39,518 nt of DNA, taken from positions 1 to 39,518 of the forward strand of contig JAAZNF010000066.1 of assembly GCA_012798435.1 (NCBI GenBank). Direction: 5' to 3'. Source of the stretch: Myxococcales bacterium (GTDB lineage Bacteria; Myxococcota; B64-G9). The position numbers and the translations under genes were made by a program. The notes below the pieces were generated by a model that saw nothing but the letters and a program-made list of their open reading frames with translations, did not search any database and had not been told where the DNA came from. Position 1 is the stretch's first letter. Each line of letters begins with the position of its first letter. Of the stretch, positions 20,163 through 29,071 are shown in pieces.

Positions 20163-20771
20163 ATGGCTTCTCCCCGCCGGGCCGCGCGCCGCTCGTCGCC
20201 ACCGCGCAGGCGCCCTCGCCCCGAGCCCACCCCACCCGCCTCCGTCCCTGCAAAGATTGCCTTGCCGCCGGGGCGCAGCATCGTCTTCTCCGTGAACGGA
20301 AAGACGGTGCGCCGCACCCTGGGCTGGGACGTGCCGGCCGGGATGAAGCTCTCTGAGTTTTTGCGCGAGGAACTGGGGCTCACCGGGGTCAAGGTCGCCT
20401 GCGGCCAGGGCGCCTGCGGCGCCTGCACCGTGCTGCTCGACGGCCGGGCCGTGCTCTCGTGCATGATGCTGCTGGCCCAGGCCGACGGCCACGCCGTGGT
20501 CACCATCGAGGGCCTGCCGGCGGACGATCCGGTGATCCGGGCCTTCGCCGAACAGAGCGCGCCGGGCCACGGCACCGCCTTGCAGTGCGGCTTCTGCACC
20601 CCCGGCTTCGTGATGACCGCCAAGGCCCTGCTGGCCGAGAACCCGGCGCCCACCCTGGAGGAGGTGCGCCAGGGGCTCTCCGGCAACCTGTGCCGCTGCG
20701 GCTGCTACCAGGGCATCGCCCAGGCGGTGCTGGAGGCGGCCCGGCGCCTGCGGGAAGGAGGCGCGGCATGA
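20163..20771 (+). CDS. Molybdenum hydroxylase [2Fe-2S] small subunit (xanthine dehydrogenase family)
   Basis: 202 aa. It carries two [2Fe-2S] clusters that pass electrons from the Mo centre to the FAD subunit. The plant-ferredoxin cluster uses Cys80, Cys85, Cys88 and Cys100 (CGQGACGACTVL); the second uses Cys142, Cys145, Cys177 and Cys179 (CGFCTPGFV and GNLCRCGCY). It differs from ordinary family members by an Arg/Pro-rich N-terminal extension of about 37 residues, which is not a recognisable Tat signal (no S/T-RR-x-F-L-K). AAGGAGG precedes the ATG. The stop overlaps the start of the Mo subunit gene (ATGA). Confidence 0.94.
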   Translation: MASPRRAARRSSPPRRRPRPEPTPPASVPAKIALPPGRSIVFSVNGKTVRRTLGWDVPAGMKLSEFLREELGLTGVKVACGQGACGACTVLLDGRAVLSCMMLLAQADGHAVVTIEGLPADDPVIRAFAEQSAPGHGTALQCGFCTPGFVMTAKALLAENPAPTLEEVRQGLSGNLCRCGCYQGIAQAVLEAARRLREGGAA

Positions 20772-23128
20772 AAAAGCCCTTCACCCCACGGGTCAGGCGC
20801 AAGTTCCTGGGCCAGTACCGCCCGCGCTCCGACGGATTGGAGAAGGCCTCGGGCCGGGCGCGGTACGCCGACGATCTCACCCTGCGCCGGCGTTTCCCGG
20901 ATCTGCTCTACGCCCGGGTGCTGCGCAGCCCCTACCCCCACGCCCGCATCCTCTCCATCGACACCGCCGCGGCCGAGGCCCTGCCGGGGGTGCGCTGCGT
21001 GCTCACCTGCTTCGATCCCGAGGTGCGCGCGCTGCGTCCCACCAACGCCGGCTGGACCGACGGGGTGGACACGGTCTCCTACGAGCGCATGATGTGGCGG
21101 CGCTTCCGCGACCGGCGCGTGCTGGGCGACACCGCCCACTGGGTGGGCGACGAGGTGGGGGCGGTGGTGGCCGCCGAGAGCGAGGAGGTGGCCGAGGAGG
21201 CGCTGCGCCGGCTCAAGGTGCGCTGGCAGAAGCTCCCCTTCGTGCTCGACCCGGTGGCGGCCATGCAGCCCGGCGCCCCGGCCGTGCACCCCGACATCGC
21301 GCCGAACAACGTCCTGCCCGAGGACGAGGTGGGCGGCCCGGACGTTTTTCTGAACAAGGGCGACGTAGACGCCGCCTTCGCCGCGGCCGAGGTGGTGGTG
21401 GAGGCCGACTCGGTCCACCACAACCCCACCCAGGGCGGCCTCGACCCCTGGTGTTGCCTGTGCCACTGGACCGACGAGGGGCTCACGGTGTGGTCGAACT
21501 CCTACGAGGCGGACCAGACCCGCATGCACCTTTCGCAGATGCTCGACCTGCCGCTGCACCGGGTGCGCAGCGTGCACGAGTTCGTGGGCGGGCAGTTCGG
21601 CAGCCGCGACACCGGCGACCAGCCCTTCTTCGTCTTCACCGCCCTGCTCTCCAAACGCTGTGGCCGGCCGGTGAAGTTCCGCTATACCCGGCGCGAGTGC
21701 TTCCACGACTCGCGCCAGCCGGCCATCTACCACGCAAAGGCGGGGGCGAAGCACGACGGCACCATCACCGCCCTGGAGTTCTCCTCGCTGGGTGACGCCG
21801 GAGCCTACGCCGACCACACCATGTTCGCGCTCAAGTTCGCGCCGCTGGAGGTGGCCGAGACGACCTTCGCCCACGTCCCCAACGTGCGCTGCCGATCGCT
21901 GGCGGTGTACACCCACCGGCTGCCGGGCTGCATGATGCGCGGGGTGGGCAACTCCCAGTTCAACTTCTCCATGGGGCTCTTGTTCGACAAGCTGGCCGAG
22001 CGGCTCGGCATGGACCCGATCGAGCTGGTGCTGAAGAACTTCGGCCACGAGCACGAGGGATTGCCCAACCGCAGCCTGCGCGAGGTGTTGTCGGCCGGGG
22101 CCGAGCGCATCGGCTGGAAGGAGAAGCGCCACCCGCCCGGCCAGGGCCCGCTGCTCGAGGGGGAGCGGCGGCGCGGGGTGGGGTTCTCCTTCCACCCCGC
22201 CTGGCACGCCGAGTGGCAGGAGCTGCGCCGCGGCGAGATCCAGGTGGGGCTCACCCTCAACCCCGACGGGACGGTGCTGCTGGAGGCGCCCACGGTGGAG
22301 ACCGGCACCGGCTCCAACATGTGCAACATCCTGGGCTGCGCCGAGGCGCTGTCGTTCCTCGACATCCAGCTCGGCGACATCCGCTTCGCCAACCGGGTCG
22401 ACACCGCGCACAGCCTCAAGGACTGCGTGCAGACCGACAGCGCGGTGGCCTACCTGCAGTCCGAGGCGCTGGTGGAGGCGGCGCGGCTGCTCCAGGGCGA
22501 GATCCTGGCGCGCGCGGCGAAAAAGCTCTCGACCGACCCGGCCCGGCTCGACGTGCGCGAAGGCCGCATCGTCTTTCGCGACGACTCGCGCCCGAGCGTC
22601 CCGCTGCGCCAGCTCCTCATGCAGCCCGACATCGTGCCCATCTCGGTGCGCCTGAGCCGGCCGCCGCTCTCGCAACGCACCGGGGTGCCCTACATCGCCA
22701 CCTTCGCCGAGGTGGAGGTGGACTGCGGCACCGGCAAGGTGGAGGTGCAGAAGCTGGTGGTGGTGAACGACTGCGGCACGGTCATGTTCGCCTCCGGGGC
22801 CGAGGCCCAGCAGGTGGGCGGCCAGTGCATCGGCCTGGGCGAGGCGCTGACCGAGGAGATCGTCTACGATCGGGCCAGCGGCCAGCCGCTCAACTTCAAC
22901 TGGATCGACTACGCCATCCCCACCATGGCCGACATGCCCGACATCGAGCCGGTGCTGCTCGAGGTGTGGCGCGGCGGCGGCGCCTACGGTGCCTGCGGCA
23001 TCGGCGAGGGCACGGTCACCTGCGCCCCGCGCGCCATCCTGAACGCCATCTACAACGCCATCGGTTCGCGCGTGGACGAGCTGCCGGTCAAGCCCGAGAA
23101 GATCCTGCGCGCCCTGGGAAAGGCATGA
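20768..23128 (+). CDS. Molybdenum hydroxylase catalytic (molybdopterin) subunit
   Basis: 786 aa, typical for a separate large subunit. The N-terminal a/b hammerhead domain (about 20-160: DGLEKASGRARYADDL) is followed by the Mo-cofactor domains. GGQFGSR (274-280) is the cofactor loop, MRGVGNSQ contains the usual active-site arginine, and Glu747 in GACGIGEGTVT is the expected catalytic base. The otherwise conserved QE..LEP segment reads TQGGLDPWCCLCHW (221-234), with Asp226 in place of Glu and three cysteines, so the substrate is probably not xanthine and cannot be assigned. Aromatic acyl-CoA or N-heterocycle hydroxylases are possible. It is the second gene of the operon, 9 bp before the FAD subunit gene. 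Confidence 0.9.
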   Translation: MKKPFTPRVRRKFLGQYRPRSDGLEKASGRARYADDLTLRRRFPDLLYARVLRSPYPHARILSIDTAAAEALPGVRCVLTCFDPEVRALRPTNAGWTDGVDTVSYERMMWRRFRDRRVLGDTAHWVGDEVGAVVAAESEEVAEEALRRLKVRWQKLPFVLDPVAAMQPGAPAVHPDIAPNNVLPEDEVGGPDVFLNKGDVDAAFAAAEVVVEADSVHHNPTQGGLDPWCCLCHWTDEGLTVWSNSYEADQTRMHLSQMLDLPLHRVRSVHEFVGGQFGSRDTGDQPFFVFTALLSKRCGRPVKFRYTRRECFHDSRQPAIYHAKAGAKHDGTITALEFSSLGDAGAYADHTMFALKFAPLEVAETTFAHVPNVRCRSLAVYTHRLPGCMMRGVGNSQFNFSMGLLFDKLAERLGMDPIELVLKNFGHEHEGLPNRSLREVLSAGAERIGWKEKRHPPGQGPLLEGERRRGVGFSFHPAWHAEWQELRRGEIQVGLTLNPDGTVLLEAPTVETGTGSNMCNILGCAEALSFLDIQLGDIRFANRVDTAHSLKDCVQTDSAVAYLQSEALVEAARLLQGEILARAAKKLSTDPARLDVREGRIVFRDDSRPSVPLRQLLMQPDIVPISVRLSRPPLSQRTGVPYIATFAEVEVDCGTGKVEVQKLVVVNDCGTVMFASGAEAQQVGGQCIGLGEALTEEIVYDRASGQPLNFNWIDYAIPTMADMPDIEPVLLEVWRGGGAYGACGIGEGTVTCAPRAILNAIYNAIGSRVDELPVKPEKILRALGKA

Positions 23129-23137
23129 GGTGAGGCC

Positions 23138-25537
23138 ATGGAGCTTCGAACCTTCGAGACCATCGCCCCCGACTCCGTCCCGCAGGCGCGCGCGGCCCAC
23201 GGAAAGGACGGCGCCTACCTGGCCGGCGGCACAGACCTTTTGGGTGTGCTGACCGATCGTATCCACGCTACCTCACCGGCGCGCCTGGTGGACCTGCAGC
23301 GGCTCTCCGAGCTTCGCCGGATCCAGCCGGAGCGGGGCGGGCTGCGCATCGGCGCGCTGGTCACGCTGGCGGAGCTTGCTCGCCACCCCGCGATCGTCGG
23401 GCGCTACCCGCTGCTCTCGCAGGCGGCCCGGGCGGTGGCCTCGCCCCAGATCCGCAACGCGGGCACGCTGGGCGGCAACCTGTGCCAGGAGGTGCGCTGC
23501 TGGTACTACCGCGCGCCCGACAACGTGTTCCCCTGCATGCGCAAGGGCGGCGCCACCTGCAACGCCCTGCTCGGCGAGAACCGCTACCACTCCATCTTCG
23601 GCGCGGTCCGCCTGGGCGCGCCGGCCTGCGCCGACGGCTGTCCGGCGGGGGTGCCCATCCCGCGCTACCTGGAGCGCCTGCGAGAAGGCGACGAGCGCGC
23701 GGCCCTCGAGCTCATCCTGGAGCGAAACCCCCTGCCGGCCATCACCGGGCGGGTGTGCCCGCACTTCTGCGAGCAGGCCTGCAACCGGGGCCTGCTGGAT
23801 CAGCCGGTGGCCAGCCGGGCCATCGAGCGCCGGCTGGGAGACATGGCGCTGGCGGAGGCGGCGCGCTTCTACGCCCCGCCGCGCCGGAACCTGCGAAAGA
23901 GCGTGGCCGTGGTCGGCGCCGGGCCGGCGGGTCTGGCGGCGGCCTTCTACCTGCGGCGGACCGGCTACGCGGTCACGGTCTTCGACGATCACCCGGAGCC
24001 GGGCGGCATGCTGCGCTACGCCATCCCGGCCTACCGGCTGCCGCTTTCGGTACTGCGCCGGCAGCTCGAGGCGCTGGCGGGGATGGGCATCCGCTTCGAG
24101 TGCGGCCGGCCGGTCGGCGCCAAGGATCTAGCGCTGGCCAGCCTGCGCAAGCGCTTCGACGCGGTGTTCCTGGCCACCGGCACCTGGCGCGAGAAGCGCC
24201 TGGGCATCGCGCACGAGGAGCTGCTCACCCCGGGCCTTTCCTTCCTCTCGGCCATCCGGGCCGGGCGAAAGCCCGCGGTGGGCGAGCGGGTGCTGGTCAT
24301 CGGCGGAGGCAGCGTGGCGGTGGACGTGGCGGTATCGGCCCGGCGCCTGGGCGCCCGCGAGGTCTCGCTGGCCTGCCTGGAGGCCCGCGACGAGATGCCG
24401 GCCTTCCCCGAGGATCTCGCGCTCGCCATCGAGGAGGGGATCCGCCTGCTGCCCTCCTTCGGGCCGCAGCGGGTGCTGGCCGAGAAGGGCCGGCTGGCCG
24501 GGCTCGAGCTGGTGCGCTGCACCTCGGTGTTCGACGAGGAGCGGCGCTTTCGCCCGGCCTTCGACCCGTCCACCAGCCGCGAGGTGGCCGCCGACCAGGT
24601 GCTGGTGGCCATCGGTCAGGGGCCCGACAACCGCTACGCGGGCGCGGCCCTGGTGGATTCGCGCGGCCTGCTCTGCATCGAGCCCGAATCGGGGGCCACC
24701 GCGCTGGGCGGGGTCTTCGCCGGCGGCGACGCGGTGACGGGGGTGGGGACGGTGATCTCCGCCATCGGCGCGGGACAACGCACCGCCCGATCCATCGACG
24801 AGATGCTCTCGGGCAAGAAGCGCCGTACCGAGCCGGAGCCGACCTGCGCCGGGCAGGCCATCCGCTGCGAGCCGGAGTCGCTCCGGCCGCAGCCGCGCCT
24901 GGAGACGCAGCGCCGGCCGGCGGCGGAGCGGACCCTGGAAGACGAGGACGACGCCACCGCGCCGGCCGAGGCGGCGGCGCGAGAGGCGAAGCGCTGCGCC
25001 AACTGCGGCTGCGTGGCGGTGAGCCCCTCCGACCTGGCGCCGGCGCTCATCGCGCTCGGGGCGCGCATGGTGACCGACCGGCGGGTCATCCCGGCGGAGG
25101 AGTTCTTCGCGGTGCGGCCGCGCGCGACCACCGTGCTTGGAGACGGCGAGATCCTGCGCCAGGTGCTGCTGCCCCCGCCGCCGCGCGGCGGCCGGCAGCG
25201 CTACCAGAAGTTCCGCCTGCGCAACAGCATCGACTTCCCCATCGTGGGCGTGGCCAGCCTGGTCACGCAGCGGGCCGGCCGGGTGCGCGAGGCGCGGCTG
25301 GCGTTCTCGGCGGTGGCGCCGACGCCGATCCGCGCGCGCGCCGCCGAGCGTTTTTTGCGCGGCCGGCGCCTGACCGAGGAGGTCGCCGAGGCCGCCGCGG
25401 CCATGGCGGTGCAAGACGCCGCCCCGCTCGCGCACAACGCGTTCAAGGTGCAGGTGCTGCGAACCCTGGTGCGCCGGGCGCTGCTGGACACGGCAGGCGC
25501 GGGCGATAAGCGCGCGAAAAAGACCGTGCCCACATGA
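23138..25537 (+). CDS. Molybdenum hydroxylase FAD subunit with an inserted GltD-like Fe-S/FAD/NAD(P) oxidoreductase module
   Basis: 799 aa, more than twice the normal FAD subunit. Residues 1-155 are the first part of a molybdopterin-dehydrogenase FAD domain (YLAGGTDLL, IRNAGTLGGNLCQEVRCWYYR) with Cys116, 121, 133 and 141, recalling the [4Fe-4S] loop of 4-hydroxybenzoyl-CoA reductase. Residues 160-245 resemble the Fer4_20 domain of GltD/dihydropyrimidine dehydrogenase (Cys164, 168, 207, 211, 215). Residues 254-560 are a two-dinucleotide oxidoreductase with GAGPAGLAAAF for FAD (260-270) and VIGGGSVAVDVA for NAD(P) (387-398). A linker with CANCGC (620-625) leads back into the FAD domain (VSPSDLAPALIALGARM) and its C-terminal lobe. 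The module is thus nested in one domain, not appended. GAGGTGAGG precedes the ATG. Confidence 0.9.
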   Translation: MELRTFETIAPDSVPQARAAHGKDGAYLAGGTDLLGVLTDRIHATSPARLVDLQRLSELRRIQPERGGLRIGALVTLAELARHPAIVGRYPLLSQAARAVASPQIRNAGTLGGNLCQEVRCWYYRAPDNVFPCMRKGGATCNALLGENRYHSIFGAVRLGAPACADGCPAGVPIPRYLERLREGDERAALELILERNPLPAITGRVCPHFCEQACNRGLLDQPVASRAIERRLGDMALAEAARFYAPPRRNLRKSVAVVGAGPAGLAAAFYLRRTGYAVTVFDDHPEPGGMLRYAIPAYRLPLSVLRRQLEALAGMGIRFECGRPVGAKDLALASLRKRFDAVFLATGTWREKRLGIAHEELLTPGLSFLSAIRAGRKPAVGERVLVIGGGSVAVDVAVSARRLGAREVSLACLEARDEMPAFPEDLALAIEEGIRLLPSFGPQRVLAEKGRLAGLELVRCTSVFDEERRFRPAFDPSTSREVAADQVLVAIGQGPDNRYAGAALVDSRGLLCIEPESGATALGGVFAGGDAVTGVGTVISAIGAGQRTARSIDEMLSGKKRRTEPEPTCAGQAIRCEPESLRPQPRLETQRRPAAERTLEDEDDATAPAEAAAREAKRCANCGCVAVSPSDLAPALIALGARMVTDRRVIPAEEFFAVRPRATTVLGDGEILRQVLLPPPPRGGRQRYQKFRLRNSIDFPIVGVASLVTQRAGRVREARLAFSAVAPTPIRARAAERFLRGRRLTEEVAEAAAAMAVQDAAPLAHNAFKVQVLRTLVRRALLDTAGAGDKRAKKTVPT

Positions 25538-26943
25538 GTGAGCGCTGCTTTCGCTGCGGCGCGGAGAAACCCGCGCCCATGGTTGGCGACGAGCCGGTGT
25601 GCCCGAGCTGCGGCGCCTGGAGCGGGGCCGCATCATACCGGCCGGCGGCGAGCCTCGACCAGGAGAGCGTCAGCATCGTGCCGGAAGCCGAGCTGCCGCT
25701 GGCGGTGCAGGCCACCCTAGAGGTGGAGCCCGGCGGCTTTCGCCCGGAGAGCCACATCGAGGATCCGCGCGAGCTGCGCGCCGACTACGAGCGGCTGCGG
25801 GCGGCCTACCTGTTCCACCGCTACGCCGGCGGCGAGGACCACCCGCCGGCGCTGCTGGAGAACCTGTTGCGCCTGGCCTTCGAGCTGCTGCCGGCCGATC
25901 GCGGCGCGGTTTTACTTCGCGAGGAGGCGGGGGCGCCGCTCATCCCGGCGGCGGCGCGGGAGCGCGGCCCGGGGCGGGTGTCGCTCTCCATCCCCGAGCG
26001 CATCTTGCGCGCGGCGGTGGAGGGCCGGCGGGCGGTGCTCTCCACCGACGCCACCTCCGACGCGCGCTTCGCCGGCTCGGAGAGCATCCTGCGGGCCAAC
26101 GTGCGCTCGGCCATGTGCGTGCCGCTGGTCGGCTTTCGCGAGGTGCTGGGGGTGATCCACCTCGACACCCGCGAGCAGACCGGGGCTTTCACCGCCAAGG
26201 ACCTTTCGCTGCTATCGGTGCTGGCGTCCCAGGCGGCCCTGGCGCTGGACCGGCTATGGCTGCGGCGCCAGGTCGAGCAGGAGGCCCGCCTGCGCGAGCG
26301 GCTCAGCCGCTTCTTCCCTCCGCCGGTGCTGAGCGAGGTGATCGAGCGCGGCCTGGATCTGACGCGGGAGGGCCGTACCGGCCCGGTGAGCGTGCTGTTC
26401 TGCGACATCCGCGGCTTCACCGCACTGGCCGAGCGCCTGCCGCCGCGCGAGGTGCTGCGGTTGCTGAACGCCCACTTCGAGCGCCTGGTGGCGGTGGTGT
26501 TCCGGCACGCCGGGGTGCTGGACAAGTTCATCGGGGACGCCCTGATGGCGGTGTGGGGCGCGCCCATCCGGCGCTCGGACGACGCGCGCCGGGCCCTGTC
26601 GGCGGGGCTGGAGATGCTGGTGGCGGTGCGGGAGTTCAACCGCGCCCGGCCGCCGGAGTGGCCCGAGCTCCAGGTGGGCATCGGCATCAACTCCGGCGAG
26701 GCGGTGGTGGGAACAGTTGGATCCGCGCTGCGAATGGAGTATACCGTGATGGGCGACGCGGTGAACCTGGCGGAGCGGCTGTGCGCCATGGCCGCACCGG
26801 GGCAGCTCCTGCTCAGCAAGCAGACGCTGCTCCAGTGCGCCGCCCCGGGCCGGGCGGCGCCGCGGGTGCGCTCGCTGTCCGAGCTGCCGGTGCGCGGCCG
26901 CTCGGGCCCGGTGGAAGTGTTCGAGTGTCTGGACCTCCCATGA
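25534..26943 (+). CDS. GAF-domain class III adenylyl cyclase
   Basis: 469 aa, no membrane segment. It makes cyclic AMP from ATP. The N-terminus is a zinc-ribbon-like CxxC pair (Cys5/8 and Cys23/26). A GAF domain spans about 105-245 (SAMCVPLVGFREVLGVIHLD), then a short helical linker (RLSRFFPPPVLSEVIE) and the cyclase domain (about 280-460). The active site looks complete: metal Asp291 (FCDIRGFT) and Asp335 (FIGDALMAVWG), ATP-selecting Lys331 and Asp408, and transition-state Asn411 and Arg415 (GDAVNLAERL). The ligand of the GAF domain is unknown. The start lies within the stop of the hydroxylase FAD gene (ATGA), so both are translated from one mRNA. Confidence 0.93.
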   Translation: MSERCFRCGAEKPAPMVGDEPVCPSCGAWSGAASYRPAASLDQESVSIVPEAELPLAVQATLEVEPGGFRPESHIEDPRELRADYERLRAAYLFHRYAGGEDHPPALLENLLRLAFELLPADRGAVLLREEAGAPLIPAAARERGPGRVSLSIPERILRAAVEGRRAVLSTDATSDARFAGSESILRANVRSAMCVPLVGFREVLGVIHLDTREQTGAFTAKDLSLLSVLASQAALALDRLWLRRQVEQEARLRERLSRFFPPPVLSEVIERGLDLTREGRTGPVSVLFCDIRGFTALAERLPPREVLRLLNAHFERLVAVVFRHAGVLDKFIGDALMAVWGAPIRRSDDARRALSAGLEMLVAVREFNRARPPEWPELQVGIGINSGEAVVGTVGSALRMEYTVMGDAVNLAERLCAMAAPGQLLLSKQTLLQCAAPGRAAPRVRSLSELPVRGRSGPVEVFECLDLP

Positions 26944-26956
26944 AGGAGGAAAGGCC

Positions 26957-29071
26957 TTGCCGGTGCAGCGTTGTCCAGCCTGTGGCACCTTGCTGGACGT
27001 CGGAATCTTCGTGAGCGGCCAGAAGGTTCGCTGCGACGCCTGCAAGCTCCCCTTCGTCGTGCGCCGGGACGACTCGGTCCTGGTCGAGCCCGCGGAGATG
27101 GCCGCGCCGCGCCGCGTGGCCCCGTCACCGGGTGCTGGCGCTGCCGGGGCGGCCCGTCCCCGCCCCGAGCCGGCGCCCCCCCGGCCGGCGCTGGAGGTGC
27201 TGGCGGCCCCGGCTCCTCCGGCCCCGCCCACCCAGGCCGGAGAAACCCCGCCGCTCATCCCGGGGTTCCAGATCCACGAGGTCATCGGGCGCGGCGGCAT
27301 GGGCAAGGTGTACCGGGCGCGCCAGAACTCCTTGCAGCGGCCGGTGGCCATCAAGGTGCTCAACGAGGACCTGGCCAAGCACCAGAGCTTCATCCGCCGC
27401 TTCGAGAAGGAGGCCCAGTCGCTGGCGCTGCTGAGCCACCCCAACATCTGCGCCATCTTCGACCGGGGCATGGTGGGCTCGACCTGCTACCTGGTCATGG
27501 AGCACATCGACGGCCCCAGCCTGCGCCACCTGATGAACAAGGGCCCCATGCCGCTCGGGGACATGGCCCGGATCTTCGCCGACCTGTGCCGCGCGCTGAA
27601 CCACGCCCACAACCACAACGTGATCCACCGCGACCTCAAGCCGGAGAACGTCCTGTTCAGCCGGGAGGGCGTGCTCAAGGTGGTCGACTTCGGCCTGGCG
27701 AACATCCTGGACAAGAACTGGGAGCTCACCCGCACCCAGGTGAGCATGGGCACGGTCAACTACATGGCGCCCGAGCAGCGTCGCGACGCCAAGCACGTCG
27801 ACCACCGGGCCGACATCTTCTCGCTGGGCGTCATGTTGTACGAGATCCTGTGCGGCGAGCTGCCGCTGGGCCGCTTCGACCCGCCCTCCCGGCGGCGGCG
27901 CGAGATCGGGCCGCAGGTCGACGAGCTGGTGCTCAAGATGCTGGACACCGAGCCCGACCGCCGGCCGCAGAACGCCGGCCGGGTGGGGGCCATCCTGGAG
28001 GGGTTGCTGCGCCCCGCCGCGCGCGATCGCGGCCCCAGAGAACCCGCTCGCGCCGGCGAGGACGACGAGGAGCCGGACGGGCAAAACCTCCCGGTCGCGC
28101 CCCGCTCCCGCGAGCCGCAGAGCTCCCCGCAGCCCCCACCGCAGGTGCCGCAGGCGGCGGTCCTCGCCGAGGAGAAGCCGCTGCAGTCGCTGCTGGGCAA
28201 GCCACGGGGCCGGCGCTGGTGGTTGTGGCTGCTGCTCTCCGTGCCTCTGTTCGGGCTGGCGGCGGCGCTCACCTTCTGGGGGCTGCTCCTCCAGGACATC
28301 GGAACGGCGTCCGGCGATCTCATCTTCGAGCGCCACGGCGGCGCGCTGGTCTCGCGCCGGGCCCACCCGCGCAGCCAGAGCCTCATCTCCCCCGCCGAAG
28401 CCCGAGTGGCACACGGGCGCCGGCTGCTCCGGTTCGACTTCAAGCGTTCCAGCCTGGCCCCGGTGCCGATCACCTTCGTGGGCGGCAACTGGGAAAACCG
28501 GGGCAAGCTGGTGCAGGACACCTCGCGGCAGGCACTCACCGTGAACCTGGACCCGGCGTTGGCCCTGTGGGGCGAGCAACCCGCGCCCCCGGAAGGCCTC
28601 TCGTTGAAGATCAGCTTCGCCGTTCAGCCCTCTCACCCGGTGGCAGGCTCCGCGGACTCCCTTCCGCTGCCCACGCTGCCCGACCCGGCGGATTGGATGC
28701 CGAGCACCACGCAGCAGCTCCTCCACCAGCCGATGAAACTCAACACCGAAAGCCGCATCGGCGCCGGCTTCGTGGACGGCGAGGGTCGCGGTCTGCTCGT
28801 GCTGCTCCCCCTGGCGCGCCAGGATCGGCTGGTCATCTTGCGCAACGGGCCCGGCATGGAGCAGGGCCGGTCGGAGGTTCCCCTCCCCTCGATCGCCGCC
28901 CAGGGGACCCTCTCCCTGGAATTCGCCGAGGGAAGGGTGCGAGCCACGCTGGAGGACAAGCTTTTGGTGGACGAGCTGGCGGGATTCCCGCTGGGATTCG
29001 CCGGCCACGCGGCGGTCGCCTGCCAGAACGCCCGCTGCTCCTTCAGCGAGGTAGCCATCGCCTCCCCCTGA
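26957..29071 (+). CDS. Membrane Ser/Thr protein kinase with a zinc-ribbon N-terminus and an extracytoplasmic lectin-like domain
   Basis: 704 aa. Residues 6-29 carry Cys6/9 and Cys26/29 (CPACG, CDACK) like a zinc ribbon, then a Pro/Ala linker. The kinase domain (about 103-350) is complete: GRGGMG loop 111-116, Lys133, HRDLKPEN (224-231, Asp226), DFG 244-246 and APEQ 271-274, so it should be active. A Pro/Glu-rich linker leads to one membrane helix at 421-445. The outer 250 residues form a beta-rich domain ([39 protein letters not shown]) resembling concanavalin-like/DUF1080 folds, a guess at fold level. It starts at TTG with GGAGG upstream; GTG at 26963 is an alternative. It is 13 bp after the cyclase gene, the last of the operon. 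Confidence 0.9.

Follow-up and report, generated by a model that had tools for sequence, protein, structure and literature searches.

The window analysed here, a stretch of 39,518 nucleotides from a Myxococcales bacterium, carries three genes arranged head to tail that together encode the [2Fe-2S], molybdopterin (Mo) and FAD subunits of a molybdenum hydroxylase of the xanthine-oxidase family, with nine bases between the stop codon of the Mo subunit gene and the start codon of the third gene. The FAD subunit encoded by this third gene is divided in two by a GltD-like oxidoreductase, and we refer to it and its homologues as nested proteins. The features of the locus are as follows:

20163..20771, forward strand: small subunit with two [2Fe-2S] clusters (Fer2, Fer2_2); start at 20163 chosen within a mechanical open reading frame that runs from 19686
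20768..23128, forward strand: molybdopterin (catalytic) subunit, 786 aa (MoCoBD_1, MoCoBD_2, Ald_Xan_dh_C)
23138..25537, forward strand: nested flavoprotein subunit, 799 aa, ATG start (Pfam domains and full-length homologues)
23138..23602, forward strand: N-terminal half of the FAD domain, residues 1-155, with AGGTDL at 29 and GTLGGN at 109 (FAD_binding_5, motifs, alignment to un-nested relatives)
23498..23560, forward strand: stretch with C121, C133 and C141, presumed ligands 1-3 of a PaoB-type [4Fe-4S] cluster (invariance; same pattern in un-nested kin, 5g5g_B and 5y6q_B)
23603..25009, forward strand: GltD-like insert, residues 156-624 (Fer4_20 and Pyr_redox_2)
23618..23854, forward strand: Fer4_20 domain with C164, C168, C207, C211, C215 and the candidate non-cysteine ligand E230
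23900..24775, forward strand: FAD/NAD(P) domain, residues 255-546 (Pyr_redox_2 in Pfam, motifs)
24374..24382, forward strand: C413-L414-E415 where NADP-type GltD has YRR, predicting NAD(H) preference (motif alignment)
24995..25012, forward strand: CANCGC, with C620 and C623 as predicted GltD-cluster ligands and C625 as predicted fourth PaoB-type ligand
25010..25534, forward strand: C-terminal half of the FAD domain, residues 625-799, with CO_deh_flav_C at 689-784 (Pfam, alignment)

Positions 23138-25537 form a single uninterrupted ATG open reading frame in which the Pfam domains follow one another in the order FAD_binding_5 (6-118), Fer4_20 (161-239), Pyr_redox_2 (255-546) and CO_deh_flav_C (689-784). 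The GC fraction at third positions is 0.85-0.99 in every 80-codon block, so the middle and the ends of the chain share one frame and there is no sign of a frameshift or of merged genes. The original prediction held that the FAD domain breaks off after the segment GENRYHSIFGA and resumes some 470 residues on, with an Fer4_20-like domain, complete FAD and NAD(P) motifs and CANCGC in between, and the domain and motif assignments bear this out: the break falls at residue 156, the FAD domain resumes at about residues 625-628, CANCGC lies at 620, and the dinucleotide motifs of the insert are complete (GAGPAG at 260, GGGSVA at 389 and GGDAVTG at 529). The insert is about 35-42% identical to separate GltD-like proteins and has the makeup of a GltD-like module, with Fer4_20, an FAD/NAD(P) domain and candidate ligands for two [4Fe-4S] clusters (seven cysteines plus E230).

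Among NCBIfam models, the small subunit matches the gamma type of xanthine dehydrogenase (XDH) and glyceraldehyde dehydrogenase with scores under the cut-offs, and the model nearest to the Mo subunit is XdhA (391 bits against a cut-off of 780). No NCBIfam model with a match to any of these three subunits reached its cut-off, nor does any such model span the nested chain end to end; the 4-hydroxybenzoyl-CoA reductase models fell short (TIGR03193, 134 of 257.8 bits; TIGR03194, 337 of 994.55; TIGR03195, 156 of 404.55), as did the YgfK model TIGR03315 (241 bits against 835.3), to which the GltD part alone was matched. Downstream, a gene with GAF and nucleotide-cyclase domains (25534-26943) overlaps the end of the nested subunit gene by 4 bases, and next comes a Ser/Thr-kinase-like gene (26957-29071) whose product begins with a zinc-ribbon-like segment; in a related genome (L054, after 11683) a kinase-like gene likewise lies downstream of the nested subunit. 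The nested reading frame is the only full-length match in its own genome, another contig of which (C3; L070, 3353-10941) carries an un-nested hydroxylase set of FAD subunit, XdhC-like and Mo subunit genes beside a complete dihydropyrimidine-dehydrogenase-like gene with GltD, DHO_dh and ferredoxin domains.

The nested layout recurs, each time as a single reading frame, in Hungatella, Dehalococcoidales, Actinomycetota, Spirochaetota, Syntrophaceae and others, and we aligned 26 nested proteins, the window's included, from at least six phyla, with identity to the window protein falling as low as 37%. A full-length homologue with 59% identity is present in another genome of the window's family, and a genome scan matched an Actinomycetota MAG, the complete chromosome of Hungatella hathewayi DSM 13479, H. 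effluvii, a Spirochaetes MAG, a Dehalococcoidales MAG and other MAGs. Sampled searches of single phyla or classes, counting full-length nested genes at E <= 1e-115 and including the genome on which each search was centred, found the gene in 2 of 195 genomes of the window's phylum, 4 of 391 of the class of Hungatella, 1 of 301 of the phylum to which the Dehalococcoidales genome belongs, 5 of 296 from the Spirochaetes phylum (a sixth match, G938, covers the GltD part only), 2 of 296 in Actinomycetota (four genes) and 7 of 247 of the phylum of the Syntrophaceae genome (where the copy in G1568 is broken by a frame change), which indicates that the layout is rare but widespread. Because the architecture was found repeatedly and at full length in many independent genomes, it lies far beyond chance. 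One genome (G1372) holds three nested paralogues (L063, L064, L065); two paralogues there with sister FAD and Mo subunits (L051, L053) differ in cassette type, CLE against YRR at the site of C413-L414-E415. At L058 (8470-11370) the small subunit ahead of the nested one has seemingly lost its second [2Fe-2S] motif, a fumarate-reductase-like flavoprotein lies upstream, and no Mo subunit gene was found at the locus. For one nested homologue, L041, the search of the locus gave no Mo subunit gene, so the nested subunit may sometimes act without one.

The position of the insert is defined by comparison with un-nested relatives of the FAD subunit (L027-L034), which carry the same loop with four cysteines (RCWYxR...C.RKGG..C.A..GdnRYHsIfGG..CfAv.PSD). 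PaoB (5g5g_B) and the aldehyde oxidase medium subunit (5y6q_B) share this FAD domain and four-cysteine loop but have no insert, and little sequence lies between their third and fourth cysteines. These two are 468-543 residues apart in the complete nested proteins, so the insert splits the cluster-binding loop itself: it sits inside the PaoB-type [4Fe-4S] loop, between the putative ligands 3 (C141) and 4 (C625). The original prediction had likened the insertion point to the [4Fe-4S] loop of 4-hydroxybenzoyl-CoA reductase, and the place and the tie to the loop stand, since the FAD (beta) subunit of that enzyme (1rm6_B) has its extra loop at the same site; its loop sequence is different, however, it lacks a GltD module, and the loop-bearing FAD domain matches the aldehyde oxidase medium subunit (164 bits) and PaoB (131 bits) more closely than the reductase (119 bits). 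The exact site is now narrowed to the interval between ligands 3 and 4. In the flanks of L027-L034 that were examined, no GltD-like gene was found among the matches.

Every one of the 26 nested proteins has C121, C133, C141, C164, C168, C207, C211, C215 and E230, and C620, C623 and C625 are kept in each of the 25 that reach the C-terminal junction, the other protein, L016, stopping at a contig end before it. A chance motif match is ruled out by this invariance. We infer the cluster assignments from alignment to known proteins. C164, C168, C207, C211 and C215 align with five of the seven cysteines of the N-terminal two-cluster region of dihydropyrimidine dehydrogenase. The remaining two GltD ligands, located upstream in that enzyme, would come from C620 and C623, as is suggested by the RCxxCG that the StnC and NfnA families have in the equivalent position; the GltD module aligns to these families over residues 162-626, their C-terminal RCxxCG included. 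Plausibly, then, the first two cysteines of CANCGC complete a GltD cluster and the third completes the PaoB-type cluster, and the adjacency of these ligands, with C625 two residues past C623, is the strongest hint that a direct wire may join the two flavin domains. By alignment, E230 coincides with the Glu ligand known from NfnL and glutamate synthase, which in NfnL binds the proximal cluster (PMC9503767), is likewise a cluster ligand in the non-bifurcating glutamate synthase (PMC8097209) and is replaced by Lys in StnC (PMC10482914). R300, the Arg of YRLP that corresponds to StnC R239 and NfnB R201, is also invariant among the nested proteins, yet both R300 and E230 are common to non-bifurcating relatives.

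Structure prediction of the 799-aa chain alone with AlphaFold2 gave a pLDDT of 82.3 and a pTM of 0.75 from 20 nested sequences, and a pLDDT of 89.2 and a pTM of 0.86 once the alignment was widened to include un-nested FAD subunits along with separate GltD proteins. The weaker parts are the cluster loop at about 121-150, which improved with the deeper alignment, and the linker at 561-580. Such a high whole-chain pTM is what we would expect if both modules fold in a fixed arrangement, and the model offers no refutation of the nested reading. The best 50 Foldseek matches to the first model were all GltD-type, headed by Nfn/Stn and GltD proteins.

The nested proteins fall into two types by the residues after the second nucleotide motif, where NADP-type GltD modules carry YRR. 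CLE or a close form (ALE, SLE) is present in the window protein and 16 relatives, and also in the truncated L016, whereas YRR is found in the other eight (L017, L053 and six Thermodesulfobacteriota proteins within L074-L080). A basic pair at this position usually serves to bind the 2'-phosphate of NADP, and since an acidic residue replaces it in the CLE set, NAD(H) use is predicted for these proteins and is the most likely for the window enzyme, a prediction from one motif. The separate GltD protein L010 also carries CLE, so this change may have arisen more than once.

We consider it likely that the three subunits form an NAD(P)-coupled molybdenum hydroxylase, a member of the xanthine-oxidase family whose FAD subunit has taken up a GltD-like NAD(P)H:Fe-S oxidoreductase within its [4Fe-4S] loop. 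Its predicted cofactors would be Mo, two [2Fe-2S] clusters, a first flavin (FAD1), three [4Fe-4S] clusters, a second flavin (FAD2) and NAD(P). In the order that we infer, electrons from a substrate oxidised at Mo would pass through the two [2Fe-2S] clusters to FAD1, then to the PaoB-type cluster (C121, C133, C141, C625), the distal GltD cluster (C164, C215, C620, C623), the proximal cluster (C168, C207, C211, E230), FAD2 and finally NAD(P)+, and the same chain could run in reverse for a reductive reaction. In 4-hydroxybenzoyl-CoA reductase the external partner of the [4Fe-4S] cluster is ferredoxin, and the insert would convert a cluster that serves an external partner in relatives into a built-in NAD(P) port. 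GltD-like modules are known to hand NAD(P)H electrons to another domain through low-potential [4Fe-4S] clusters (PMC8097209), and the simplest reading of the GltD flavin is as a plain NAD(P) port rather than as a bifurcating one. Two expectations of the original prediction are supported, a subunit with two flavin sites and several Fe-S centres and, as its likely role, direct coupling to NAD(P). Gene neighbours showed no set consistent between the genomes compared that would identify the substrate. Upstream of a nested operon in Spirochaetota (L059, 453-5711) are genes for a carbon-nitrogen hydrolase (amidase), RidA-like and ATC-hydrolase-like proteins, an AraC-type regulator and a serine-dehydratase-alpha/cysteine-desulfidase-like protein, which may point to an N- or S-heterocycle, and in another genome (L057) corrinoid methyltransferase genes neighbour the nested copy.

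A different direction of flow is possible but rather unlikely, namely that electrons from NAD(P)H travel along the same wire to strip a ring hydroxyl group at Mo, in the manner of 4-hydroxybenzoyl-CoA reductase or E. coli XdhD-YgfM. The extra [4Fe-4S] cluster reportedly accompanies inverted electron flow in 4-hydroxybenzoyl-CoA reductase, and many nested copies come from anaerobic lineages. XdhD-YgfM, moreover, has been proposed to reduce uric acid using NAD(P)H (PMC12507026). Against this, the aldehyde-oxidising PaoB enzyme has the same loop, the Mo subunit scores higher with XdhA than with the 4-hydroxybenzoyl-CoA reductase alpha subunit (391 versus 337 bits, both below cut-off), and no CoA-ester or aromatic-pathway genes adjoin the window copy.

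The original prediction also raised the splitting of electrons, and we regard as improbable a bifurcating or confurcating enzyme in which an NfnL-like GltD flavin would divide pairs between the Mo branch and an acceptor such as ferredoxin. Two flavins would be present, E230, at the position of the proximal-cluster Glu, is invariant together with R300, and among solved structures the insert is closest to Nfn-type proteins. However, glutamate synthase, which does not bifurcate, also has the Glu ligand (PMC8097209), and in StnC, where the role of the Arg near flavin N5 has been discussed, that residue is present but the flavin is non-bifurcating (PMC10482914). A single linear chain of centres leads from the GltD flavin, and beside the window operon there is no gene for an NfnS-like protein, for a StnAB/HydBC-like partner or for a second acceptor; with no second outlet encoded nearby, bifurcation is not supported. 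Very improbable is a structural or vestigial insert, with FAD1 itself reacting with NAD+: the FAD domain of xanthine dehydrogenase does reduce NAD+ directly and needs no GltD module to do so, but all Fe-S ligands and both dinucleotide motifs are kept in the 26 nested proteins despite their divergence. Finally, although the source is a draft assembly of 129 contigs, a merger of two genes by frameshift, assembly join or binning error has almost no probability left and is refuted by the full-length nested homologues, in a related genome and in a finished chromosome, as well as by the even codon signal.

Returning to the NAD(P)-coupled hydroxylase, the histories of insert and host conflict. The GltD tree unites the 17 CLE-type modules (100/100) and leaves the YRR-type outside, whereas L017, a YRR protein, joins the window group (nine rows) in the FAD-domain tree (99/96) and the Mo-subunit tree (100/99), and L051 and L053, which differ in cassette type, are paired in both (100/93 and 100/100). 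Both arrangements are rejected by the GltD data (L017 in the window group, p-AU 1.5e-6; L051 paired with L053, p-AU 4.7e-13), and the CLE rows as one clade are rejected by the FAD data (1.6e-4) and the Mo data (8e-6), in tests for which some groups were picked after the trees were seen and which include several long branches and thin taxon sampling. A single origin of the nested form is rejected by the Mo data (nested rows as one clade, p-AU 5e-5), although neither the FAD data alone (p 0.23) nor the GltD data alone (p 0.13) reject it; in the Mo tree the un-nested L029-L032 fall inside the group that holds the nested L075 and L079 (100/99). As the FAD and Mo trees agree and the GltD tree conflicts with them strongly, the cassette appears to have been exchanged, or to have come and gone more than once, at a single site; the most economical interpretation is that lineages traded GltD cassettes there, with loss or repeated gain besides. 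We lean, with some reserve, toward the broader view that the [4Fe-4S] loop is a plug-in site at which GltD cassettes of about 470 residues, differing in NAD/NADP preference, have been repeatedly inserted, lost and exchanged while the host remained intact. A possible source of the cassette is found at L020 (4839-9206), where an apparent 2-oxoacid:ferredoxin oxidoreductase operon encodes a stand-alone GltD-like protein joined to a ferredoxin domain; the GltD tree places this protein with the YRR-type nested modules.

Both component families are well known; what is new here is that one is nested in the other, that their clusters draw on a common ligand stretch, as predicted, and that cassettes have apparently been exchanged. 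GltD, the small subunit of glutamate synthase, and dihydropyrimidine dehydrogenase likewise combine two [4Fe-4S] clusters, FAD and an NAD(P)H site and pass electrons to a second domain, but they do so as a separate subunit or an end-to-end fusion, and the two cluster cysteines that lie on their N-terminal side would here come from the C-terminal end of the insert. In StnC and NfnA (8oh5_C, 9n5u_A, 9bov_A) a GltD-like module with C-terminal RCxxCG is fused into a larger redox subunit, although the host is NuoG/FdhF-like rather than a molybdenum hydroxylase and StnC has Lys at the E230 position. In E. coli, the molybdenum hydroxylase XdhD-YgfM stands beside the GltD-containing Fe-S flavoprotein YgfK in anaerobic purine breakdown (PMC12507026), but YgfK acts as an independent enzyme, has a substrate site of its own and is no part of the FAD subunit. 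In a genomic survey of domain fusions among molybdoproteins from 2018, GltD appears with the DMSO-reductase family and not with the xanthine-oxidase family (PMC6147048), and we found no published description of a GltD/molybdenum-hydroxylase fusion in the open-licence literature.

Our findings suggest that the nested module probably wires a molybdenum enzyme straight to the NAD(P)H pool, by a coupling route distinct from those of xanthine dehydrogenase, which uses NAD at FAD1, and 4-hydroxybenzoyl-CoA reductase, which uses ferredoxin. Nested proteins occur in gut and environmental anaerobes, and together with their un-nested relatives and two cofactor types they constitute a natural experiment on redox-module insertion and carrier switching. 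If the plug-in reading is true, exchange at this loop would re-wire the same catalytic core to different electron carriers.
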